This document shows positions 12,219-31,029 of a stretch of DNA of 64,000 nt, piece by piece. The stretch lies in the NCBI GenBank assembly GCA_020048985.1, contig JAIFLR010000024.1, forward strand, positions 1 through 64,000, written 5' to 3'. The notes under the pieces are model-generated. The model worked only from the letters and a program-made list of their open reading frames with translations. It did no database searches and was not told the origin of the DNA. Position numbers and translations under genes: made by a program. How positions within the stretch are numbered: the stretch's first letter is position 1; each line of letters begins with the position of its first letter. The DNA comes from Halobacteriovorax sp. Lineage in GTDB: Bacteria; Bdellovibrionota; Bacteriovoracia; Bacteriovoracales; Bacteriovoracaceae.

Positions 12219-13892
12219 CTAAAGTTGATCTGACGCTGAATTCGAAACAGCTTCTTCAAGTGTTGTTAATCCCTGTGCTACTTTTGTAAGAGCACACATA
12301 CGAAGTGTTTTCATGCCGTCACGTATAGCCTGTTTTTTAAGCTCATCAGCTGAAGCATTACGTAGAATAAGTTCTCTGATTTTTGGAGTAACAGAAAGGA
12401 CTTCGTAGATTGCAAGACGGCCTTTATATCCGGTGTTATTGCACATATCACAACCTTTACCATGGTAGATTTTAATCTTTTCTGCCGATGCTGGAGCAAA
12501 CCCGCACGTGATAAGCTCCTCAACAGGGATTTTCTTTTCTTCACGGCAGTTAGTACAAATTTTCCGACAAAGACGCTGGGCCACGATCACGTTTAACGCC
12601 GCAACAACAAGAAAAGGTTCAATCCCCATATTCAGTAAGCGGGTGACTGTAGCAGGAGCATCGTTGGTGTGAAGTGTAGACAAAACAAGGTGGCCTGTAA
12701 GAGCTGCTTCTACGGCAATCTCGCCTACTTCCAAGTCTCGAATCTCTCCCACCATGATAATATCTGGATCTTGACGGAGAAATGCTTTCAATGCGGTGGC
12801 AAATGTTAAGCCAACTTCTTTTTTGACGTTTACCTGATTACAGCCTTCCAAGTTAAATTCACATGGATCTTCAGCTGTTGAGATATTGCTATCGGGAGTA
12901 TTCAGATCAGCCAGGGCAGAATAAAGAGTTGTGGTTTTACCTGAGCCTGTAGGGCCTGTCACTAGACACATACCATACGGGCGGTGAATTCCTTCTTTAA
13001 AAACCTCGAGCTGCTTCGCCTCAAATCCAAGTTTTGTCATGTCCAGCTGGAGGTTACTTGAATCCAGTAATCGTAAAACAATTTTCTCACCAAACAGTGT
13101 AGGCAAAGAAGAAACTCGATAATCAATTGGCTTTCCACCAATCATTAATTTGATACGTCCATCCTGGGGCTTACGTTTTTCAGAAATATCCATTTGTGAC
13201 ATAATCTTCAAACGAGACAGCACTGAAGGCATCATACTCTTAGGTGGCTGAGCTACCTCGACTAGGTTCCCATCAATTCGCAGCCTGACTCGAAAAATTC
13301 GTTCATAGGGCTCAACATGGATATCTGAAGCCTTTTTGACAAAGGCTTCTGCTAGAAGTCGATTCACAAAGGTCACGACATCATCTGAAATATCTTCAGC
13401 TTTTAGATTGTCTTCCTGGGCGCTACTTGCAGCTGTAACTTCTTGAATATTATTAATCAAATCATCAACAGAATCTTTTATCCCTGAATATAATTTTCTC
13501 CAGGAAGAAATGTTAGTTAAAATGAATTCAACTTGTTTTTTAAAGACGTCTGACAATTCTTTTGTAGCTTCGGCGATAACACTTGGATCAAAAGTTGCGA
13601 GAGTCACTTTTGAAGCAGTCTTCTGTATGGGTATTGCCCGCCACTTAATGGCGAGTTTTTTCTTTAATATCGAGATTGTTTCAGTAGGAACTTTTGCATT
13701 TCGTAAATCAATAAAAGTGAGAGAGTATTTTTCCGAACATACTTTGGCGAACTTGTTCTCATCAAAATATGGCATTGATAAAAGTTCGAACTCATTTATC
13801 TCATCATCTTTACCCATAGAAAGACGACGCAGCTCTTTAAGAGTGGCCATCCCCGTGTTGGTAACAATGTCGATAAACTCTTTACGAATCAT
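12219..13892 (-). CDS. pilB: Pilus extension ATPase PilB
   Basis: The 557-residue motor drives pilus extension. An MshEN-type N-terminal domain (about 1-160) is followed by the GspE core with Walker A GPTGSGKTTT, Walker B IIMVGEIRDLEVGE and His box TGHLVLSTLHTND. The four-cysteine zinc motif typical of PilB is visible (CRKICTNC and CDMCNNTGYKGR). The MshEN region can bind c-di-GMP in some PilB and MshE proteins, but the key residues cannot be judged by eye here. The ATG at 13892 follows AAAGGG. It is preceded by a 56-base gap to aroE on the same strand. Confidence 0.97.
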   Translation of the reverse strand: MIRKEFIDIVTNTGMATLKELRRLSMGKDDEINEFELLSMPYFDENKFAKVCSEKYSLTFIDLRNAKVPTETISILKKKLAIKWRAIPIQKTASKVTLATFDPSVIAEATKELSDVFKKQVEFILTNISSWRKLYSGIKDSVDDLINNIQEVTAASSAQEDNLKAEDISDDVVTFVNRLLAEAFVKKASDIHVEPYERIFRVRLRIDGNLVEVAQPPKSMMPSVLSRLKIMSQMDISEKRKPQDGRIKLMIGGKPIDYRVSSLPTLFGEKIVLRLLDSSNLQLDMTKLGFEAKQLEVFKEGIHRPYGMCLVTGPTGSGKTTTLYSALADLNTPDSNISTAEDPCEFNLEGCNQVNVKKEVGLTFATALKAFLRQDPDIIMVGEIRDLEVGEIAVEAALTGHLVLSTLHTNDAPATVTRLLNMGIEPFLVVAALNVIVAQRLCRKICTNCREEKKIPVEELITCGFAPASAEKIKIYHGKGCDMCNNTGYKGRLAIYEVLSVTPKIRELILRNASADELKKQAIRDGMKTLRMCALTKVAQGLTTLEEAVSNSASDQL

Positions 13893-25699: not shown

Positions 25700-26503
25700 T
25701 TAAGGGGCAGTCTTAGATGAGTCGCCCAGGAAGTATTTTAGGGCCTCACCTGCATTGATTTGGTAATTTTTAAATTCAATAGTTTCTTCTGTTATCATGG
25801 GCTTAGCATTCGAGGATTCAAGCTTCTGTTCAGTTGTGATCTCGACCTCGCTCAAAACGGCTATCCCTTGAGAGGTTCCATACTTCAGTTCTTTTTTAAC
25901 CGTCAGAGATTGGCCATTTTCAGAGCTGGTTGTGGATGTAGATTTCATCACCCATTTCCCCGCTGCAAACCCTTCCTTTTCGTATTTTGGAGTAGTTACA
26001 AGCGTTCCAACGGCCTTATTGCCCACGACCTCAGTTAATCTATCTTGGTTATCAAAACGTAAAACAAAAGATTGTACGTTAGCAATCCCGGTAGAATCTT
26101 GAGCAACGATATCTTTGGGACTACCTGCTGTATTAAACTTATAGCCCGCAAATCGTTGAACAGAAGTGAGTGGGAGTAAATTATCTATGACCGAGAAAAT
26201 GGAAAGTTTAAGTTCTTCCTTGATTTCTCTGAACCCATCAGGAAGGCCAATGACTTCAATGGCAATTCTTTCGGGATTAGCAGTCCAGTAGGTTCTAAAA
26301 ATTACTTCTTTAACTTTCCCAAACGTCATCATTTCATTCATCTGTTTTGTCAGCTTGGAGCTTTCGATATCAACGACAAATTCTTTTACGCCCTTGGTTT
26401 TCAATGAATAGACTTTGGCATCAAAACTATTCAAATAGCTAACAGGATCCTGAGACCAAGCGTTCATTGAAAATACTGCCATGATTAAAAATAGTGCTCT
26501 CAT
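25700..26503 (-). CDS. Exported LolA-like protein of unknown function
   Basis: The 267-residue protein from the ATG at 26503 has a signal peptide (MRALFLIMAVFSMNAWSQ) and a beta-rich body with repeated strands (VKEVIFRTYWTANPERIAIE, VQSFVLRFDNQDRLTEVVG, ATKEGFAAGKW-like segment). These resemble half-barrels of the LolA/LppX fold, but no diagnostic motif is visible, so the fold call is tentative. The gene follows rqcH with almost no gap. A starter codon at 26521 would overlap rqcH and spoil the signal peptide. Confidence 0.75.
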   Translation of the reverse strand: MRALFLIMAVFSMNAWSQDPVSYLNSFDAKVYSLKTKGVKEFVVDIESSKLTKQMNEMMTFGKVKEVIFRTYWTANPERIAIEVIGLPDGFREIKEELKLSIFSVIDNLLPLTSVQRFAGYKFNTAGSPKDIVAQDSTGIANVQSFVLRFDNQDRLTEVVGNKAVGTLVTTPKYEKEGFAAGKWVMKSTSTTSSENGQSLTVKKELKYGTSQGIAVLSEVEITTEQKLESSNAKPMITEETIEFKNYQINAGEALKYFLGDSSKTAP

Positions 26504-26505
26504 GA

Positions 26506-27843
26506 TTATTCCTTCAACCATTCATTTGAATTAACTTTGGGACACCTTAGGTGTTTTTCTTTTTTGTATATTACCATACCCGGTGATCCAGTCACACCCT
26601 TCAAATTTTTCACGGGTGTATAAATAATGGGAATCCATTCGTCCTGTAATTGAGAAAAATGGGCAACTATCGAAGCGCCCAAATTGATTATGGGTGAGGA
26701 AACAGCCTGGTTACTATGGAGTTTAATGATGGCGTGAGCACTTTTGAGCCCTTCCAGATGAATCCAAATATCTTCTTTACTCGCCCATTTATTTCGAAGT
26801 TGATCATTTCCTGAGGAGCTCATACCAACCCCAATTGAGAAACCATCAAATTTAAAGATCTTATAGTCCTCTTTTTCAGGCATCTTCGTCAAAAACTGAC
26901 CTTCTTTCTTATCTTCCTTGCCCCATATTGGTTTGGTGATAGCAAGGGTTGAAGAGGATTTTGATTCCGTTTGTTTTCCTGCTAGTAATTCTTTGGCTTC
27001 AAGCAAGCGTTGATTAAGAATGCCTTCTCCGCGCTTAAGCTTTTTGATTTTTTCATATAACAGATTTCTTCTTTCAAAGGGATTGAGATCACCTTCAAAT
27101 TTAATTTTGTGAGCTCCCACTTTAAGCTCATACATATCAAGGGATTGATCTTTATCTAAGATCTTTTGCATTTCATCCCATTGTTTTGTCCGGCTTAAAT
27201 CATCCTCTATGTTACAAATCTTTCTTTGCAGAAAATTCGGGGCGGTATTCATGCCTTTGAGTTTAGCCGCATTTAGTTCATCTTGCAGAAGTTGACTAAA
27301 GGTGGACGTAGAAGAGGAGTGCAGATCATGACTCATATCGGTCCGGCGTCCAACCTCATTAAAGAATTCATAAAAATCTGCCATGTCTTCATTGGGAACG
27401 AAAGACTTTCCATGCCAACTTAATAGCAGCTTAAAAGGTCCTTCAGGGATCTCCTGATAATGATGAACGAAGTAGAGTTTTCTGGCCTTCCAAAAAAATA
27501 GAATGGTTTGAAGCTTGCCAAATTTCTGATAGGAAAATTTCAAAATTCGGTCGTATTGATCGATATCTAGCGAAACAAAACTACATGAACTGATATGCTT
27601 TCTAAGGTATTCAAGGAACGTGTCCTTTCTTCGCAGCGCCGGGGGCGGGGCCTGTTCGTGAAGCCAAACGCCCTCGTGACCTCCACCCCGGCCCATGTAA
27701 AGATGCCAAGTTTTACCTGGTGAACGGATTGAAAATGAGATAAAAAATGAGGTACTATAAATCTTCTGAATTTGACCATAAGCAAGTCCGTGCTCACTTA
27801 TATTTTTGACCTGTTTTTCTAAATCCAGATAATATTGAATCAT
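26506..27843 (-). CDS. rqcH: NFACT-family ribosome quality control factor RqcH
   Basis: RqcH binds 50S subunits carrying a stuck nascent chain and adds alanine tails that mark it for breakdown. The NFACT-N domain holds DQYDRILKF, whose Asp98-Arg99 pair matches the Asp-Arg (97-98 in Bacillus) needed for tailing. A coiled-coil middle follows, and the C-terminal NFACT-R domain has GFSIGVGMSSSGNDQLRNKW and DIWIHLEG near 330-360. At 445 residues it is shorter than Bacillus RqcH (about 570), mainly in the HhH and coiled-coil parts. I chose the ATG at 27843 because it puts the DR pair at the expected distance; a GTG at 27873 is possible. The start abuts that of mutS2. Confidence 0.88.
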   Translation of the reverse strand: MIQYYLDLEKQVKNISEHGLAYGQIQKIYSTSFFISFSIRSPGKTWHLYMGRGGGHEGVWLHEQAPPPALRRKDTFLEYLRKHISSCSFVSLDIDQYDRILKFSYQKFGKLQTILFFWKARKLYFVHHYQEIPEGPFKLLLSWHGKSFVPNEDMADFYEFFNEVGRRTDMSHDLHSSSTSTFSQLLQDELNAAKLKGMNTAPNFLQRKICNIEDDLSRTKQWDEMQKILDKDQSLDMYELKVGAHKIKFEGDLNPFERRNLLYEKIKKLKRGEGILNQRLLEAKELLAGKQTESKSSSTLAITKPIWGKEDKKEGQFLTKMPEKEDYKIFKFDGFSIGVGMSSSGNDQLRNKWASKEDIWIHLEGLKSAHAIIKLHSNQAVSSPIINLGASIVAHFSQLQDEWIPIIYTPVKNLKGVTGSPGMVIYKKEKHLRCPKVNSNEWLKE

Positions 27844-27846
27844 ATG
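27841..27846. other. Shared CATATG carrying both rqcH and mutS2 start codons
   Basis: The palindrome CATATG holds the rqcH ATG on the minus strand (27841-27843) and the mutS2 ATG on the plus strand (27844-27846). No Shine-Dalgarno sequence is visible for mutS2 and only a weak one for rqcH, so each leader and any promoter must lie inside the other coding sequence. Confidence 0.7.
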
Positions 27847-30210
27847 ACTATTAATCTCATCAGCACCAATCACTCAGTCCATCATACCCAGGTTGAATGG
27901 GATGTTTTGACTAAAATTATAGCGCAATTTGCCTATTTTGAGCGCAATAAGGAAGAACTTGTAGGAAAGATTTTCGCTGACAGGCTTGATGCTCTTTCAG
28001 AAGAATTTATTAGAACGCAGAGTTATCTGCATGAACTGACCGATGATTACAGACCTATTTTGACTCAAGTATTTTCCAAGATTACCCCAGATCACACTTT
28101 GGAGCGGCTCAGGGCGCACATTTCAAAAAAAGGGATACTAAGCTTTTCAGAATTAAATAAGCTGGCCCTCTTGATTGAGAGTGCTATTTTTATAAAAAAA
28201 GATTTTCCTTCGTTAAAGCTCGCCGAATTCCAAAAAATTTCTGAATTAGATTTCCATCCTGTTCAGCGGCAGTTCTTAAGAGAATTCAGGCATCTCGTAG
28301 ATGACACCGGTGATGTGCACTTTGATCGGCACCCAGAATTATCCGAATTGAATCGACGCTTGAGAGAGCTCGAAGAAAGAATAAGAAAATCTGTTCAGGA
28401 ATGGATTAATGAGCCGGGAAATCAAAAAATTCTGCAATACGGAAGTTATGATATTCATCACGACCGATATGTGGTGCCTGTAAGATCTGATTCGTACCGC
28501 TCCGACATCGGGCTCATTGTCTCGAGGTCAGAGTCAGGCCAGACACTTTTTGTAGAACCCTTCCAAGTCAGAGAATCCTGCAATAGGCGCATGGAAATGA
28601 TTGCCAAGATTGATGAAATTATTAATCAACTTGCTATGAAATTTTCTTACGCACTATTTGATTTTTCCGAGCTCTTGGACTCTGTTAGTTACTTTTTTTT
28701 AAGAATTGATTTCTATCAGGCCAAATCTGCGTTTGCGAATCAGTATGGCCTTGAATGCCCACAAATAAGGCAAACTCCTGGATTTAAATTCTCCCAACTT
28801 TTCCATCCACTAATCAAAAATCCGGTAAAAAACAATGCCGACTGTGGACCTAACGAGCATGGAATCGTTATCTCCGGGCCTAACACAGGAGGTAAGACAG
28901 TTTTTTTAAAATCATTAACTCTATCTTATCTGCTTTTCTATCATGGTTTTTTTGTTCCAGCTGCAGAGGCTGAGATGTATCCTTATGAAGGACTTTTTTA
29001 TTTTGGAAATGATCTACAGGACCTTCAGGTTGGTCTAAGTTCTTTTTCCGGTGAAGTAAAAAACTATATTCAATTAATGGAAAGCATACTTCCTTCTAAT
29101 TTAATTTTAATCGATGAGATATTTAATTCAACCTCATCAGACGAAGCTTCTGCTCTTTCCCTTTCTTATTTTGATGAGCTTCATAAGCGTGGAACATGTC
29201 ATATTGTCGTTTCCACCCACCATCAGATGTTCAAGACTATCATCCACCAAGATCGCAATTACATTTCATGCCATGTTGGATTTGATACAAAAAACATGAG
29301 GCCCACCTATAAGATCCAGTGGGGAACACCTGGGGCGTCAATGGCAATTGATGTTTTTCGCATTTTGTCCAGAAACAATCCCGGGGTTAAAGATGTGCCG
29401 GATAAAGCTTTGACTCACCTGAGTGATAAAAATGTGAGTTACGAAACACTACTGCAGCGAGTTTCACAAAAACAAATTGAACTGGATCAGCTATTAAGCA
29501 GTAACTATCAGCTCGAAATCGAAATTAAAAACCAAAAAGGTGCCATGGAGGGCGTTTTAAACTTAAAACTCAACGACGAACTTTCCAAGGCCCGAAAAGA
29601 AATTGATAAAATCCTACAAGAAGCAAGGCTTATTGTTGAAGAAGCACGAAGAAGTGAAATCTCAAAAGTAAAAAGAATTGATGATAAGTCACATACTCTT
29701 AACGTCAAATTGCGGGCACTAAGTGGTGCCACTGAAGAAGTGGAACCTTCCGTGCCAACGGGCAATCTGATTCTAAGTGATATCAAGGTGGGTGACACCG
29801 TTTACTCCATTACCCTAAAAAAAGAATTTACCGTTTTCAGTATTGATTCAAGAAAAAATGAGATTCAAATTGGGAAGGGTCCGATTAAAATCAATGTCCA
29901 CATTTCAACTCTCGCAAGCTCCAAGCGCGCTCCTCAACATCCCAAAGTAAGTGTAACCTTTCACAAGAACACAGATGCCAAATTCGAGTATGATGTTCGC
30001 GGAATGCGGCTTTCTGAATGTCAGAGCTTGATTGATATGGCCTTAGGTGATCTTCTTACAGGTGATATACCATTTGTTAACGTCATTCACGGTCATGGTG
30101 ACGGTATACTTAAAAACTGGCTTAGAGATTATGCTAAAAAGTCCAAAGAGTTTCAGATTGATAAATCTGAAAGCGGCAATGACGGCGAAACCAGAATCAT
30201 TCTAAAATAA
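27844..30210 (+). CDS. mutS2: MutS2 ATPase/Smr endonuclease, ribosome-collision rescue factor
   Basis: The 788-residue protein follows MutS2 architecture: core and clamp helices (about 1-320), ATPase with Walker A GPNTGGKT near 342 and Walker B LILIDEIFNSTSSDEASAL near 420 (a changed version of the usual DELGAGTDPxEG), coiled coil at 540-600, and a C-terminal Smr domain with YDVRGMR near 716 and VIHGHGDGILK near 749. There is no mismatch-binding domain. In Bacillus, MutS2 splits or cleaves at collided ribosomes, creating substrates for RqcH. The ATG at 27844 lacks a Shine-Dalgarno; a TTG at 27835 in the same frame is the alternative. It ends at a strong hairpin terminator. Confidence 0.95.
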   Translation: MTINLISTNHSVHHTQVEWDVLTKIIAQFAYFERNKEELVGKIFADRLDALSEEFIRTQSYLHELTDDYRPILTQVFSKITPDHTLERLRAHISKKGILSFSELNKLALLIESAIFIKKDFPSLKLAEFQKISELDFHPVQRQFLREFRHLVDDTGDVHFDRHPELSELNRRLRELEERIRKSVQEWINEPGNQKILQYGSYDIHHDRYVVPVRSDSYRSDIGLIVSRSESGQTLFVEPFQVRESCNRRMEMIAKIDEIINQLAMKFSYALFDFSELLDSVSYFFLRIDFYQAKSAFANQYGLECPQIRQTPGFKFSQLFHPLIKNPVKNNADCGPNEHGIVISGPNTGGKTVFLKSLTLSYLLFYHGFFVPAAEAEMYPYEGLFYFGNDLQDLQVGLSSFSGEVKNYIQLMESILPSNLILIDEIFNSTSSDEASALSLSYFDELHKRGTCHIVVSTHHQMFKTIIHQDRNYISCHVGFDTKNMRPTYKIQWGTPGASMAIDVFRILSRNNPGVKDVPDKALTHLSDKNVSYETLLQRVSQKQIELDQLLSSNYQLEIEIKNQKGAMEGVLNLKLNDELSKARKEIDKILQEARLIVEEARRSEISKVKRIDDKSHTLNVKLRALSGATEEVEPSVPTGNLILSDIKVGDTVYSITLKKEFTVFSIDSRKNEIQIGKGPIKINVHISTLASSKRAPQHPKVSVTFHKNTDAKFEYDVRGMRLSECQSLIDMALGDLLTGDIPFVNVIHGHGDGILKNWLRDYAKKSKEFQIDKSESGNDGETRIILK

Positions 30211-30234: not shown

Positions 30235-31029
30235 TTAATCAATAATTGTACCAATTCTCCAAGGTCTAAACTTTAACGACTCCTGCTCATCTTCGCTTCC
30301 TGGCCAAGGGACAGAAAGAGAGAACCATATAGCAATGGCCTTACCTTTAATATGACCGAAGGGAACAGTACCCCATCGACGAGAATCTGCTGAAAAGTCT
30401 CGGTTATCACCCATTACAAAATAATGCTCTTTAGGAACTGTGAACTTGTAATAGTTTGCAAAATAATCATTCCCTACATCAATCTGGGTTGTATGGGTTG
30501 CGTTTCCTGTTTTAGTTTCCATAAATTTAAATTGATACGATTTATAGCGATCATCCATGTCTTCGATGATTTTTTTTCCATCAAATTCTTTTGTCTCGAT
30601 AGGCTTATTGTTAACGTAAACAACTTTGTCGATAACTTCAATTGTGTCACCTGGAAGCCCAATCACGCGTTTAATGTAATTAAGGTTTGTGTCCTTAGGG
30701 TATTTAAAAACAATCACGTCCCCACGCTCGGGCGACTTGGGACCCGTAATGTATACAGGATCAGTAAACCAATCACTGAAGGGCACCTTGAAACCATAGG
30801 AAAATTTATTCACAAGAATAAAATCACCAATCAGTAGAGTTGGTATCATTGACCCTGAAGGGATTTTGAATGGTTCAAAAAGAACAGAGCGAAAAACCAG
30901 TACAGATAAAATAATCAGCGTAAAAGACTTTACCTCTTTAATAAACTTTTCTTTTCTAGATACGACGGCAACGGGAGCCGCTTCCGGTTCAACATTAATA
31001 TCAGTTACCGGTGTTTGATTGTCTTGCAT
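30235..31029 (-). CDS. lepB: Signal peptidase I
   Basis: This membrane serine protease removes signal peptides from secreted proteins, including several in this window. A single membrane segment lies at about residues 36-52. The nucleophile Ser60 is in PSGSMIPTLL and the general base Lys120 is in NYIKRVIGLPGD; the box E segment MGDNRDFSADSRRWG is intact. At 264 residues it has one N-terminal membrane helix and an acidic, proline-rich cytoplasmic head. It lies 12 bases after a penicillin-binding protein gene and probably shares its transcript. Confidence 0.96.
   Translation of the reverse strand: MQDNQTPVTDINVEPEAAPVAVVSRKEKFIKEVKSFTLIILSVLVFRSVLFEPFKIPSGSMIPTLLIGDFILVNKFSYGFKVPFSDWFTDPVYITGPKSPERGDVIVFKYPKDTNLNYIKRVIGLPGDTIEVIDKVVYVNNKPIETKEFDGKKIIEDMDDRYKSYQFKFMETKTGNATHTTQIDVGNDYFANYYKFTVPKEHYFVMGDNRDFSADSRRWGTVPFGHIKGKAIAIWFSLSVPWPGSEDEQESLKFRPWRIGTIID

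Follow-up and report, generated by a model that had tools for sequence, protein, structure and literature searches.

Head-to-head rqcH and mutS2 genes with fused start codons in a family of Bdellovibrionota

The window, a stretch of 64,000 nucleotides from a Halobacteriovorax sp. contig (JAIFLR010000024.1), carries rqcH and mutS2 in divergent orientation, and the two ATGs meet in one CATATG at 27841-27846 with no intervening base, as an earlier note on this DNA had read it. This raises the question whether fused start codons reflect a common pathway and joint control of both genes, or were simply retained once they had formed. MutS2 is reported to split collided ribosomes in B. subtilis (PMC10897456) and is placed upstream of RqcH Ala-tailing in the pathway published for this organism (PMC11633108, PMC10897456). 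Co-occurrence has also been published, with 97% of RqcH genomes encoding MutS2 too (PMC11633108). The functional RqcH-MutS2 link is already known; the head-to-head organisation with fused starts was not found in print, and among the papers listed by our literature searches, none described rqcH next to mutS2 or divergent start codons whose overlap is conserved. The locus comprises the following features:

25700-26503, minus strand: conserved neighbour gene downstream of rqcH, ATG 2 bases past the rqcH stop, N-terminus resembling a signal sequence
26506-27843, minus strand: rqcH, 445 aa, NFACT-N and NFACT-R (Pfam cut-offs passed), ATG at 27843
26587-26850, minus strand: NFACT-R match (Pfam), RqcH residues 332-419
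27520-27822, minus strand: NFACT-N match (Pfam), RqcH residues 8-108
27547-27552, minus strand: RqcH D98-R99, aligned with B. subtilis RqcH D97-R98
27806-27835, plus strand: candidate mutS2 promoter within rqcH codons, TTGACC-18-TAATAT, ending 9 bases 5' of the ATG, conserved in the genus
27835-27837, plus strand: alternative mutS2 start TTG, in frame in 5/5 genomes of the CATATG genus
27841-27846, no strand: CATATG with both start codons abutting (direct reading and family comparison)
27844-30210, plus strand: mutS2, 788 aa, MutS2 ATPase and C-terminal Smr, ATG at 27844
27871-27873, minus strand: alternative rqcH start GTG, among family loci listed for the window and G091 only
28864-29364, plus strand: MutS domain V (ATPase; Pfam), MutS2 residues 341-507
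29992-30207, plus strand: Smr domain with DVRG and HGHGDG motifs, MutS2 residues 717-788 (Pfam, family conservation)
30235-31029, minus strand: lepB, signal peptidase I (PF10502), convergent with mutS2, conserved neighbour

RqcH of the window scored 31.9 bits against PF05833 (cut-off 31) and 33.2 against PF05670 (cut-off 29.8), and its nearest solved relative is the B. subtilis RqcH chain 7aqc_R (phmmer, E 4e-11); with the archaea-built NCBIfam equivalog RqcH_arch it reached 38.1, under the cut-off of 400. MutS2 matched TIGR01069 with 429.8 bits over residues 16-785 (equivalog cut-off 400) and Smr with 39.7 (cut-off 25.7), the MutS2 chain 8qpp_W being the nearest solved relative (E 1.7e-63). 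The Walker A/B residues K351, D424 and E425 are kept in 43/43 family members, and the Smr motif residues (DxR, HGxG) in 38/43 for D717, 41/43 for R719 and 42/43 for G752 and G754. RqcH was also said to keep the Asp-Arg pair needed for tailing, which corresponds to positions 97-98 of the B. subtilis protein. This is correct for the window, but just 31/43 family members retain both residues, the other 12 having DK or neither. RqcH of genus g6 lacks Asp-Arg in 5/5 loci (L039, L055, L074, L075, L079), all with the fused pair. The locus resembles the B. subtilis RqcH-MutS2 pathway in having orthologous proteins with key motifs, and departs from it in the length of RqcH (570 aa in B. subtilis) and in gene order, as described below. 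The protein encoded at 25700-26503 matched no family in a Pfam search; an AAGGA lies ahead of this gene inside the 3' end of rqcH. Since the S4 domain gave one match in the genome, fewer than a complete bacterium should give, absence of RqcP is not claimed.

If one of the genes truly began elsewhere, the fusion would be merely apparent, and wrong start annotation is named as the usual source of long divergent overlaps (PMC2478687). In the window, mutS2 begins with the ATG at 27844-27846 and rqcH with the one read on the opposite strand from 27843 to 27841, giving a spacing of 0; the span 27835-27873 in the earlier note reaches out to the alternative starts on either side, a TTG of mutS2 and a GTG of rqcH. 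The ATGs are the better starts, since the TTG at -9 of mutS2 is replaced in many CATG loci by TGA-ATC-ATG, with a stop in the mutS2 frame, and the GTG at +29 was listed for the window and G091 only. Among 40 fused loci an upstream alternative is available for rqcH in 23 and for mutS2 in 10, which would allow misassignment, but none exists for mutS2 in 30, for rqcH in 17 and for either gene in 14, and an upstream ATG is absent from both frames at 31. Residues just after the ATG are also conserved in both proteins (I2 in 30/43 and Q3 in 32/43 for RqcH; the N-terminal consensus MxxNLL over 12 aligned rows for MutS2), and we regard misassigned starts as very improbable.

To follow the pair beyond one genome, 191 genomes of the phylum Bdellovibrionota were searched, 50 of which belong to the window's family (f1). 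NFACT-R matched in 136 and the MutS2 model in 189, of which 133 were above the cut-off. Within f1, both genes were found in 46 genomes, rqcH without MutS2 in three (G050, G093, G164) and neither in one (G085). The genes are adjacent and divergent in 43 of the 46; in G078 a contig end cuts the pair at the junction, and in G126 and G129, sisters in the MutS2 tree, rqcH and mutS2 lie apart. In G093 and G164 (L082, L083) lepB is located upstream of rqcH. An assignment of G024 and G050 as both lacking the genes was wrong, as G024 has a diverged pair joined by CATG and G050 rqcH only; in G024 (L081) the CATG junction persists with both genes extremely diverged (MutS2 end branch 2.74).

Beyond f1, a divergent pair was present in f20 (2 genomes), f24 (1) and f17 (G105, and G070 across a contig break), with measured start-to-start gaps of 19, 24 and 95 bases (G090, G125 and G105, respectively). 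Four f7 genomes have rqcH and mutS2 in tandem, in this order; in the f7 loci L032, L035, L036 and L038 the mutS2 frame opens at most 12 bases beyond the end of the rqcH frame, which makes an operon likely. In f6, f8, f11, f12 and others the genes are non-adjacent, at least 26 kb apart in the 24 genomes with both on one contig and on different contigs in the remainder. The head-to-head pair that the earlier note described for this bacterium is a feature of family f1 and not of one genome, but most other families of the phylum do not have the genes adjacent. In 101 genomes from a Bacillota-centred draw, NFACT-R was present in 98; compared by eye, 0/98 had a close pair: in 27 genomes the two genes shared a contig but were always more than 40 kb apart, and in the others they lay on different contigs. 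Among 80 further MutS2 loci, two were from Bdellovibrionota, and the other 78 were without rqcH in the examined flank of up to 3.5 kb.

The start codons also stay together in homologues, being fused or abutting in 40 of the 43 divergent f1 loci. The genes are joined by CATG, whose AT belongs to both ATGs as a 2-base overlap, in 35 loci, by CATATG in 5 and by another junction in 3 (G135, G138, G167); L090 and L091, two named MAG contigs (Bacteriovorax sp. LF-bin-6), have CATG as well. The palindrome shared by the starts is real in the window, but is confined to its genus, where it replaces an older CATG. Since the CATATG genomes, all from the window's genus, form a single clade in the MutS2 tree with the CATG genome G016 as sister, and CATG is found throughout the family including its deepest branches, CATATG most likely arose from CATG by duplication of AT. 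The opposite assumption, CATATG as ancestral form, was ruled out by the family junction counts together with the MutS2 tree. Four genomes, G126, G129, G093 and G164, lack the pair, and there the base 5' of the examined ATG is T, not C. In 744 kb from ten family genomes we counted 53 divergent ORF pairs. Fused or abutting starts occurred in ten of them, and rqcH-mutS2 accounted for nine of the ten, another pair for the last; the fusion of the rqcH and mutS2 starts exceeds chance.

A MutS2 tree built from 54 proteins contains a branch (support 97/90) that separates f1, f17, f20 and f24 from everything else, namely the remaining families and the Bacillota and Poribacteria rows. Provided that the root lies among those other families, Bacillota or Poribacteria, the tree would be explained by one origin of the divergent pair, a later fusion in f1 and a separate tandem in f7. 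Inside f1, lepB is a neighbour in 37/43 loci and the 25700-26503 gene in 35/43; with the neighbourhood also conserved, synteny alone may account for the adjacency of rqcH and mutS2 in this family. No match to lepB or orf273, a flanking gene, was obtained in the examined stretches of f7, f17, f20 and f24, so that between families the pair is what persists.

At the fused starts the leaders lie inside each other's coding sequence, as had been noted. Poor ribosome-binding sites had been claimed for both genes, which applies to mutS2 throughout and to rqcH for the most part: strong anti-SD pairing (-4 kcal/mol or better) was found in 0/40 mutS2 and 10/40 rqcH leaders of fused loci, and in 31-72% of control genes, depending on the genome (10 to 25 genes per genome). 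For mutS2 leaders the median was -0.8; in ten genomes the medians ran from -3.0 to -5.7 for genes and from -0.2 to -2.8 at random. The rqcH codons 4-5 vary, and an SD site for mutS2 is encodable there. Synonymous sites in rqcH codons 2-16 are conserved far above the remainder of the gene, with a same-codon rate of 0.85 in codons 2-8 versus 0.50 past codon 60. Control genes show an early-codon excess as well (mean +0.10), and early-codon conservation by itself is no proof. When ranked by this excess against control genes in two genera, rqcH came 2/39 and 6/60, mutS2 25/39 and 25/60. The conservation at the rqcH 5' end is as expected if those codons carry the mutS2 start region. A symmetric constraint on both genes was rejected, as rqcH alone shows the excess, and since the mutS2 5' codons are under no special constraint, nothing backs a conserved rqcH promoter.

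The candidate promoter TTGACC-18-TAATAT/TAGTAT occurs at the same place in 4/5 members of the window's genus, with z values of 1.7-2.0 over synonymous shuffles; in G091, from the same genus, the promoter z is just 0.41. Over 40 family loci the mean z was 0.23 for mutS2 and 0.08 for rqcH, and a family-wide promoter was rejected as unproven, synonymous shuffles being equal to real sequences on average. A TANNNT ending 5-10 bases 5' of the ATG is present in 20/40 mutS2 and 14/40 rqcH leaders, which the encoded residues may explain. With regard to leaderless initiation, an SD is missing at mutS2, and only in the window's genus does a candidate promoter stand at the spacing that this would need.

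Taken as a whole, the locus is best explained as an old divergent ribosome-rescue pair with a shared CATG and SD-free initiation on short or absent leaders, a reading to which we give about an even chance of being right. By analogy to B. subtilis, MutS2 would split collided ribosomes and RqcH would then tail the chain on the large subunit. The start codons have merged into CATG, placing the start signals of each gene within the first codons of the other, as can be read directly from the fused loci. The 5' end of both mRNAs most likely falls on the AUG or shortly before it, and translation would proceed without an SD site, mutS2 being transcribed from a promoter inside the first ∼15 rqcH codons; the window's genus supports both steps, which we extend to the other genera by inference. 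With moderate confidence we favour short-leader or leaderless, SD-free initiation. One short region serving both genes could also set their ratio. As deduced from the genetic code, the fusion locks itself in, since any single substitution in CATG destroys at least one ATG, GTG or TTG start, and the duplication of AT to CATATG is an escape that keeps both starts, the form now seen in the window's genus.

This lock-in is also what makes a frozen accident a strong rival, in which the antisense of one gene's ATG was adopted by chance as the start of the other and was preserved by the dual use of CATG and by block synteny, without regulatory meaning. We consider it quite possible, though not probable. 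The two flanking genes are about equally conserved, high early-codon constraint is not confined to rqcH, and a second CATG pair is known in one genome (G181). It accounts less well for the divergent and close pairs of f17, f20 and f24, which have no match to lepB or orf273 in the stretches examined, for the f7 tandem, and for mutS2 leaders that are devoid of an SD although the variable rqcH codons 4-5 could encode one. The joint control that the earlier note derived from the shared start is not borne out, as the fusion could persist in its absence through block synteny and mutational lock-in: joint regulation of rqcH and mutS2 is plausible but unproven, because lock-in alone, with each single change killing a start, could maintain CATG. 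A stronger form of joint control, with CATG acting as a ratio switch selected family-wide, where polymerases and ribosomes would leave one SD-free site in opposite directions and keep splitter and tailing factor in fixed or mutually exclusive proportion, appears rather unlikely to us. Mutual antisense control of the excludon type would require leaders of tens of bases with 5' ends complementary across both starts, their pairing or double-strand cleavage coupling the outputs. Any leader beyond a couple of bases necessarily overlaps the coding start of the other mRNA, and in the g2 genomes G008, G055 and G063 the -10 hexamer of the best wide match ends 29-37 bases 5' of mutS2; however, a wide scan for upstream promoters found none conserved (mean z 0.11 for mutS2 and 0.10 for rqcH) and no such duplexes are known here. 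We judge this unlikely.

Excludons share with this locus the divergent genes whose 5' transcript ends could overlap, but RqcH and MutS2 would cooperate rather than oppose each other, and the long antisense leader is hypothetical here. The favoured SD-free initiation recalls leaderless and SD-less bacterial genes in the missing SD and in a -10-like hexamer close 5' of the ATG at some loci; here, by contrast, the upstream DNA is the start of another gene, and leaderless transcription is a prediction. Persistence of the fused arrangement through very deep divergence hints at one pathway for both proteins and would provide genomic-context evidence for this outside Bacillota. Against the favoured reading of the locus, three genomes keep rqcH without MutS2 and most other families hold both genes apart. 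The locus is further a natural example, open to test, of start codons of two genes that are unable to change independently, with alternative states in living relatives (19-95 bases apart, CATG, CATATG, separated).

Divergent overlaps account for about 1% of overlaps (457) in one survey (PMC2478687), and divergent overlapping pairs are described as underrepresented in prokaryotes (PMC2478687, PMC2174442). The CATG loci of the family resemble such pairs in that opposite-strand genes overlap at their 5' ends, and differ in the exact 2-base overlap of the starts, held family-wide in 35/43 loci (40/43 with CATATG). The window pair itself abuts with 0 bases of overlap and falls outside this class. 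The second CATG pair, at position 13156 of the joined control DNA of G181 (L202), consists of unrelated divergent genes, one of which looks by eye like a uridine-kinase-type P-loop protein.
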